Source: an uncultured Clostridium sp.
GTDB lineage: Bacteria; Bacillota; Clostridia; TANB77; CAG-508
DNA: 64,000 bases
Direction: 5' to 3'
NCBI GenBank assembly: GCA_947244325.1
Contig: CAMXJY010000001.1
Location: 235,322 to 299,321 of the forward strand
Of the stretch, positions 32,663 to 33,909 are shown piece after piece; the first letter of the stretch is position 1, and each line of letters starts with the position of its first letter. The notes beneath the pieces were generated by a model that did not search any database, had not been told where the DNA came from, and was given only the letters and a program-made list of their open reading frames with translations. The position numbers and the translations under genes are program-made.

Positions 32663-33247
32663 TTATTTATTCTTTTGTTTTCCAATTATTTCTATATTAA
32701 ATCCACACTCTAAAGATGACATTCCGTTTTCGTCATATGATAGTGTGGCATCTAATTTATCTTGCAAGCTTTTATCATCTTGAATATATTCCCAGTTCCA
32801 ATAAACCTTAATTTTTCTCTTCTGGTTATTTTCTTCTACTGGGATAACTCCTGATAATTCATTAATTGCAAGTTCTGTAAATTTACTATATTCTTTTGTT
32901 TTATGTATTACACCTCCTTGCTGATTTATAGTTTCTGCAAAGAATTTCATATTTGTTGGTATATTCTTTTCTTCCGTAACAATTATTTCATACTCAACTT
33001 CTACATAAGAACCACTTGCATCAACTTCAATTTCAAAACTGCCATTTGAACCTGGATATATTTTTTCATTAGATAAATTTATTACTTTTCCTGAGGTATC
33101 TGATCCAAATGACCATCTAGCAATCTCTGCATATCCATGTGCAGTATTTACTTGATTGTAACTAATAGTAGCAAATTTATAACCTACTATAAATGTTACT
33201 GAAATTAGTGCCATTATAATTAAAACACTAATTACTCTTTTTCTCAT
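32663..33247 (-). CDS. Secreted TasA/camelysin-like protein (tentative)
   Basis: 194 residues. Residues 1-24 form a basic N-terminus and hydrophobic signal helix (VISVLIIMALISVTFIVGY). The mature part is beta-rich with YAEIARWSFGSD (near 39), which resembles the start of TasA/camelysin (SipW-processed) fibre proteins. No sipW gene is visible in the window, so the family call is tentative. AAAAGGAGG precedes the ATG. The following gene (31630) also encodes a membrane-anchored beta-rich protein, and the two could form a surface module. Confidence 0.55.
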   Translation of the reverse strand: MRKRVISVLIIMALISVTFIVGYKFATISYNQVNTAHGYAEIARWSFGSDTSGKVINLSNEKIYPGSNGSFEIEVDASGSYVEVEYEIIVTEEKNIPTNMKFFAETINQQGGVIHKTKEYSKFTELAINELSGVIPVEENNQKRKIKVYWNWEYIQDDKSLQDKLDATLSYDENGMSSLECGFNIEIIGKQKNK

Positions 33248-33558
33248 TCAACCTCCTTTTATAAATTTAAGTTAAATATTTTAATCTGCAAATTTTTATT
33301 AATAATTATTCTATTAGGGGCATAAAACAAACAATTATTTAAACTAAATTTTAATATTTTTCCGTTTTTGGGGCATGACAAAAAAACATTCTTTTCATAT
33401 TATATTTTCAAAAATTTGGGATAAATAAATACCAGAACGATATTTATTTTAGATTTAAAATAATCTACAGTTAAAATATTTAACTTGTTTGAGATTATAG
33501 CACGATATTTTTTATTTGTAAAGTACTTTTTTAAATTTTTTCTAAAATCCTAATAATA
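33248..33558. other. AT-rich gene-free stretch upstream of the TasA-like gene
   Basis: No gene is supported. Two GGGGCAT motifs occur 60 bases apart (near 33315 and 33374) in an otherwise AT-rich leader. This could be a regulatory repeat for the TasA-like gene. I cannot assign a known riboswitch. Confidence 0.35.
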
Positions 33559-33594
33559 TTGACTTTTGTACTCAAAATAATATATAATAAATAC

Positions 33595-33685
33595 AAGAAA
33601 TAACAAATCCACAAACGTGGTTTTGCTTCATATATGTAACAAAGCTCACACAATACTGGGGAAAGTACAGATGTGAGTTTTTTAT
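33595..33685 (+). ncRNA. Candidate antisense antitoxin RNA
   Basis: A sigma-A promoter (TTGACT 33559-33564, 18-base spacer, TATAAT 33583-33588) points right. About 90 bases later a strong terminator follows: CTCACA...TGTGAG at 33645-33677, then TTTTTT. The predicted RNA has no convincing ORF. It contains a small CCACAAACGTGG stem and the segment GTGGTTTTGCTTC (33617-33629). It converges on the 36-codon hydrophobic ORF on the other strand and would be antisense to that mRNA's 3-prime region, as in type I toxin-antitoxin loci. Confidence 0.6.
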
Positions 33686-33689
33686 TTTT

Positions 33690-33800
33690 CTATTTGCTTA
33701 ATTTTAAAACTAATAAAATTAAGGCAAATACTATAATAGCTTCAGTAACTAAGCCAAATAATAAAAATTTTATTATTAATATCAACGCATTTTCTACCAT
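33690..33800 (-). CDS. Candidate type I toxin: 36-residue hydrophobic peptide
   Basis: ATG at 33800 follows AGGAGGTGATACT, a near-perfect ribosome-binding site. The 36-residue product has a short acidic N-terminus (MVEN), one continuous hydrophobic helix and a basic end (LKLSK), like Fst/TxpA/holin-like membrane toxins, although I cannot match it to one family. A promoter (TAGACA, 17 bases, TAGAAT) lies at 33881-33909. The predicted 5-prime leader carries GTGGTTTGCTTC (33849-33838), complementary to the mRNA's own downstream GAAGCAAAACCAC. Such end-to-end pairing keeps several known type I toxin mRNAs untranslated. Confidence 0.6.
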   Translation of the reverse strand: MVENALILIIKFLLFGLVTEAIIVFALILLVLKLSK

Positions 33801-33880
33801 AGTATCACCTCCTAACTCTCAATAAAATTGAGGATTAGAAGCAAACCACATCTGCTTATTTATCATTTCTTGTTCGTGAT

Positions 33881-33909
33881 ATTCTATATTATTTTTTCTG
33901 TATTGTCTA
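33881..33909 (-). promoter_or_regulatory. Promoter of the small hydrophobic peptide gene
   Basis: TAGACA (33909-33904), a 17-base spacer and TAGAAT (33886-33881) on the minus strand, just after the glgP terminator hairpin. It predicts a leader of about 70 bases. Confidence 0.5.

Follow-up and report, generated by a model that had tools for sequence, protein, structure and literature searches.

Type I toxin-antitoxin systems are hard to find because both of their parts are tiny. According to a 2019 review, little is known about them in Clostridia, where C. difficile is the only species with experimentally validated modules (PMC6563280). In BsrG/SR4 and TxpA/RatA of Bacillus subtilis, convergent genes specify a short hydrophobic peptide and an antisense RNA lying over the 3' end of the toxin mRNA; binding of SR4 alters the structure around the Shine-Dalgarno (SD) sequence, and the duplexes are targets of RNase III (PMC8167048). 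The par/Fst system of Enterococcus (RNA I/RNA II) has convergent promoters, a terminator common to both RNAs, a hairpin that hides the SD sequence and a membrane peptide of about 33 aa (PMC7472228), and the complementarity of its two RNAs at the translation start stems from the direct repeats DRa and DRb. In AapA1/IsoA1 of Helicobacter pylori, the full-length mRNA is inactive owing to a long-distance interaction of its 5' and 3' ends, and 3' processing opens it (PMC8167048). Within the class Clostridia, CD2517.1-RCd8 and its relatives in C. difficile are convergent, encode membrane peptides of 34–59 aa and are present in several copies (PMC6563280).

Here, we analyzed a locus in a window of 64,000 nucleotides from the genome of an uncultured Clostridium sp. 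(the source genome), and we consider it very probable that this locus represents an undescribed family of type I toxin-antitoxin modules with a candidate toxin. It shares with BsrG/SR4 and TxpA/RatA the convergent genes, the short hydrophobic peptide and the antisense RNA over the mRNA 3' end, but no sequence relation was found by profile comparison, and its leader, nearly a copy of the antisense 5' end, is paired with the 3' end of the mRNA up to the first base. With par/Fst, it has in common the convergent promoters, the shared terminator, the SD hairpin and the membrane peptide; the repeats, however, are inverted here, so that the 5' sequence is common to both RNAs and the mRNA pairs with itself into a closed form. 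A 5'/3' closure of the full-length mRNA, here predicted and co-varying, also recalls AapA1/IsoA1, but the antisense unit of our locus converges at the mRNA 3' end and provides the arm used for closure, and the peptide is unrelated by the profile searches made. Similarly, the C. difficile modules resemble it in their class, convergence, membrane peptides and multiple copies, whereas their toxins have lysine-rich C-termini and several lie in prophages; the peptide described here gave no match in phage records, plasmid records, viral contigs or by profile, and the C-terminus of its type A form carries little charge, unlike that of Fst or the C. difficile toxins. As judged from sequence, a leader that is a near-copy of the antitoxin 5' end, combined with several peptides per chassis, sets the locus apart from all of these systems.

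Anatomy of the convergent locus

The open reading frame (ORF) with its own SD sequence and promoter that the original prediction had described, as well as the ORF-less promoter-terminator unit converging on it, are both present. The candidate toxin ORF (33690–33800, minus strand) encodes 36 aa, MVENALILIIKFLLFGLVTEAIIVFALILLVLKLSK, is conserved in homologous loci and is preceded by the SD sequence GGAGGTGAT. Its promoter, TAGACA-17-TAGAAT (33881–33909, minus), is found at the same place in 54 homologues. The full-length toxin mRNA of about 280 nt (33593–33873, minus) has inferred ends, the 3' end (~33593) being deduced from a conserved inverted repeat. The 5' arm of this repeat is the mRNA leader (ACAAGAAATGATAAATAAGCAGATGTGGTTTGCTTC, 33838–33873, minus); the 3' arm (GAAGCAAAACCACGTTTGTGGATTTGTTATTTCTTGT, 33593–33632, minus) is at the same time complementary to the 5' end of the antisense RNA. 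In the predicted fold, a hairpin (TAGGAGGT, 33803–33839, minus) occludes the SD sequence.

The candidate antitoxin is an antisense RNA of about 95 nt (33593–33689, plus strand), whose promoter, TTGACT-18-TATAAT (33559–33588, plus), is near-consensus in nearly all homologues. It contains a 5' hairpin, CCAC-AAAC-GTGG (33609–33620, plus), in which both partners of pairs 17-28 and 18-27 are changed in homologues, and ends at a central terminator hairpin (33645–33684, plus; stem arms at 33645 and 33672) with a U-run, adjoining the toxin stop codon. In the window locus, this hairpin is a strong terminator for the antisense RNA and a weaker one for the mRNA. The predicted unit, with conserved promoter and terminator, covers the 3' part of the toxin mRNA and is fully complementary to its 3' third. 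In the homologous loci, the expected first transcribed bases of both RNAs are ATAGGAAAT or a variant thereof.

The peptide is predicted to form a single helix (residues 2–35, pLDDT 96.9), is hydrophobic (GRAVY 2.04) and evolves under purifying selection (dN/dS 0.35 among 43 distinct ORFs). It had been proposed to lie outside any nameable family, which agrees with the absence of a useful-score match in Pfam, NCBIfam and PHROG and of an Rfam family for the RNA. More specifically, the peptide gave no match of the Fst/Ldr type at useful score in Pfam or NCBIfam, none to the TxpA/BsrG family among curated families and none of the AapA type among curated families and PDB chains.

Pairing between the ends of the candidate toxin mRNA

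Structure prediction of the mRNA, which had been suggested as a check, gave a closed fold: the 281-nt RNA folds at −88 kcal/mol compared with −50.0 ± 4.4 for dinucleotide shuffles (z = −8.6, 0/200), and the 36 nt at its start are paired with the final ~38, leaving one small internal loop and one bulge. Part of this pairing had been recognized in the original prediction. The leader sequence GTGGTTTGCTTC indeed pairs with GAAGCAAAACCAC, with one bulged A, and the second inverted match, CAGATGTG/CACATCTG, was also recovered; the duplex, however, extends beyond what had been seen and runs to the first transcribed base (ACAAGAAATGATAAAT ... ATTTGTTATTTCTTGT).

Among homologues, changes in the leader are accompanied by changes in the 3' end. 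For example, the window locus reads ACAAGAAAT/ATTTCTTGT, most loci ATAGGAAAT/ATTTCCTAT and others ATAGAAAAT/ATTTTCTAT, with GTGGTTTTGCC/GGCAAAACCAC, GTGGTTTGCC/GGCAAACCAC and GTGGTTGCC/GGCAACCAC as further cases. Across 52 distinct loci, the duplex has a mean of −43.1 kcal/mol against −13.7 for shuffled arms. For 30 distinct leaders, cognate arms gave −42.7 kcal/mol compared with −36.4 ± 0.65 after permutation (0/5000 as good), and the lengths of the U-run and A-run agree in 48/52 loci, where the permutation maximum was 40; permutation leaves shared ancestry in place, and counts such as 0/5000 are not exact probabilities. In 18 members picked for divergence, some with arms of unrelated sequence (GATAAAGGAAT/ATTCCTTTATC, AGAAGTTAGGAA/TTCCTAACTTCT), cognate arms reached −39.1 versus −26.7 for permuted ones (0/10000), which makes shared ancestry an unlikely cause of the co-variation. 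In its mRNA form, the duplex is stronger than its opposite-strand counterpart in 51/52 loci and 15/18 divergent members, as expected if the toxin-strand RNA is the selected form, and this asymmetry arises in part from a CAGAU/GUUUG stretch that pairs through G-U. Altogether, the covariation is strong evidence for a closed form of the candidate toxin mRNA.

Since whole-element MAFFT alignment misaligns the inner arm in a subgroup with short runs, pair counts were made on hand-registered arms. RNAalifold predicted only three pairs in the antisense alignment because the terminator stems diverge and misalign, and the comparison of cognate with permuted duplexes was used instead. A gapless count of G-U versus A-C pairs in the outer arm was uninformative due to a one-base insertion, and a candidate pairing of the antisense terminator loop with the leader (GGCAAA/UUUGCC) was dropped, as it fails in the window locus.

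In the predicted fold of the window RNA, the SD sequence has an unpaired probability of 0.18–0.28. Folding of shortened transcripts did not yield a trimming switch that frees it, the SD sequence being largely paired at every length tried. Beyond the central hairpin in the mRNA direction, 38 of 55 loci have 6 or more T within the next 9 bases, and some mRNA may thus stop before the 3' arm needed for closure. A rather unlikely version of the type I module, which is a sub-case of our preferred explanation and overlaps with it in probability, is that the mRNA normally ends at this hairpin, that the far end is only the antisense 5' part and that the RNAs meet by a loop-loop contact like that of par/Fst. 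U-tails on both sides of the hairpin in these loci, complementary terminator hairpins and an SD hairpin as in par (PMC7472228) are all in line with such an arrangement, but it would assign no role to the co-varying 5'/3' inverted repeat, the repeats of par are direct while those found here are inverted, and the mRNA-side tail in the window locus is merely CTTTGTTAC.

Predicted annealing within the source genome amounted to −163 to −168 kcal/mol for cognate RNAs, −72 to −118 kcal/mol between different modules and about −50 kcal/mol for an orphan antisense unit; the two type B copies of this genome were not distinguished by predicted cross-annealing.

Distribution, peptide types and genomic site

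Homologous pairs of ORF and hairpins, proposed as a further check, were found in dozens of loci. A second copy is located elsewhere in the source genome, and a scan of bacterial and archaeal genomes yielded 63 loci, whose record titles name nearly all of them as uncultured Clostridia, many from gut samples of rabbit, goat, sheep or deer. Loci with complete ends retain leader, peptide and antisense unit, one of them (L039) with an internal deletion in the latter. The antisense promoter is close to TTGACA-TATAAT almost everywhere, and the toxin promoter is weaker. Besides that, TTTGTTYTGTTCGCTTG recurs ~40 bases ahead of the leader, at the −35 region of the toxin promoter, in ~20 homologues (e.g. 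L035, L038, L053) and may be a regulator site. Five peptide matches were set aside, two because they are SecG-like (L012 and L013, which we take to resemble SecG) and three because they are without the locus architecture (L014–L016).

Within the order, the peptide was detected in 202/385 genomes and 31/48 genera, with up to 6 copies per genome; in a class-wide draw it was restricted to the order, except for three weak matches. A covariance model of the antisense RNA (R1) identified 120 units in 52/114 genomes of the order and nothing outside it. The same 114 genomes contain 82 peptide-profile matches, 62 of which are adjacent to and convergent with antisense units. We found no described gut family of this kind in the open-access literature.

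We inspected 44 of the 58 unmatched antisense units, sorting them by eye; opposite many of them lies a different hydrophobic peptide preceded by the same leader. The type B peptide, MVKVILFFIISLMLSLTLNVALTAVLYKNWVDKQLHK, is present in two copies in the source genome; type C is represented by MVDFLLFLILGFMISVAINVALLTVIIIMWTNKE, and types D and E are rarer. The RNA chassis carries at least four peptide types besides type A. Types A and B/C share a weak common core (hhalign probability 24%, E 0.0008), and their common descent is possible. Within ~1.2 kb, three tandem modules of types B, A and B lie on one strand at L182 (G142:C13:20900-23100).

At least 12 antisense units stand alone or opposite a truncated peptide. 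One of them, in the source genome (L172, G000:C3:4193-4285), has a promoter and a terminator and no toxin opposite; it is possibly a trans-acting antitoxin. Conversely, the model gave no hit for 20 peptide matches: 10 of these are accompanied by a diverged antisense unit that has matching arms of its own, and the remaining 10 are broken, at a contig edge or probably false, apart from L222, which may be an intact toxin without an antitoxin. With 'intact' and 'toxin lost' called by reading the sequences, loss of the toxin outnumbered loss of the antitoxin by 12 to 1 (p = 0.003), as predicted for a toxin-antitoxin pair; toxicity of the peptide thereby gains indirect support. Hairpins kept without the ORF had been named as an observation that would speak against the module; where the original ORF is absent, the antisense unit usually lies opposite a different hydrophobic peptide or one that has been deleted, in keeping with the prediction for a toxin-antitoxin chassis.

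These data also bear on the improbable alternative of a small membrane protein with a benign or regulatory role, the antisense RNA serving to tune its translation. Many small hydrophobic proteins of bacteria are regulatory, and the window locus is flanked by conserved chromosomal genes, as such a protein might be. Its patchy multi-copy distribution, the very different peptide sequences on one chassis, the more ready loss of the toxin than of the antitoxin and, in the predicted folds, a doubly guarded translation argue against it. The type I toxin-antitoxin reading of the original prediction, in turn, gains support from the conserved convergent promoters, purifying selection, the co-varying pairing, the patchy multi-copy distribution and the loss asymmetry.

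At the genomic site, the pair formed by glgP and a 194-aa gene (32663–33247, minus) is conserved in congeners with the glgP neighbour in reach, and an intact module was found only in the source genome. Of the congeners examined, only two have an occupied site. In the nearest sibling (glgP end 99% identical; L243:928-1500), the decayed end of a type B toxin occupies the same place together with an antisense unit that has likewise decayed, reflecting either a toxin exchange on one chassis or two separate module arrivals. Very improbably, a small MITE-like mobile element has the inverted repeats as its ends, with the ORF as passenger and the RNA pairing as by-product: the terminal-like form of the repeats and their length of ~35 bp, the many copies and the few occupied sites would suit such an element, but both promoters are conserved outside the repeats at every site, so the repeats are not the ends of a moved unit, and furthermore they end at the expected transcript starts, the pairing favours the mRNA strand through G-U pairs and the homology of two source-genome copies runs past them.

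As a separate observation, the leader of the 194-aa gene (window ~33263–33481, minus; L242:2104-2322, minus) is a structured RNA candidate of 220–330 nt in 18 congeners. It has a long closing helix (AAGTTAAATATTTTAA/TTAAAATATTTAACTT), two conserved GCCCC motifs and a 9-bp hairpin with several double-compensated pairs, gave no match in Rfam and looks like an undescribed structured RNA.

Proposed mechanism and significance

For the toxin-antitoxin module, we infer the following course of events. The full-length mRNA would be made closed, poorly translated and stable, and abundant antisense RNA would anneal along its 3' third, starting from the complementary terminator loops or the far end. The resulting long duplex would be cut by RNase III and then decay. 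If the antisense supply stops, by loss of the locus or under stress, the leftover mRNA would be opened, probably by 3' trimming, and its translation would give a peptide that inserts into and damages the membrane of its own cell. Because the mRNA and the antisense RNA are nearly identical in sequence at their 5' ends, the leader would compete with the antitoxin for one target at the mRNA 3' end. Precedents for single steps of this mechanism are provided by BsrG/SR4, TxpA/RatA, par/Fst and AapA1/IsoA1 (PMC8167048, PMC7472228, PMC6563280). The chassis itself would take different peptides and spread or duplicate as a promoter-to-promoter unit.

A more far-reaching idea, which we offer tentatively and with some doubt, is that of one chassis, its leader nearly copying the antitoxin 5' end, with at least five peptide types across the order, whose orphan antitoxins could act in trans on relatives, as an RNA immunity against incoming copies. 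The module would represent a large, apparently undescribed candidate family in uncultured gut Clostridia with swappable peptides. Its natural variants may therefore offer material on the competition between leader, 3' end and antitoxin, and on the change of a toxin under a constant antitoxin.
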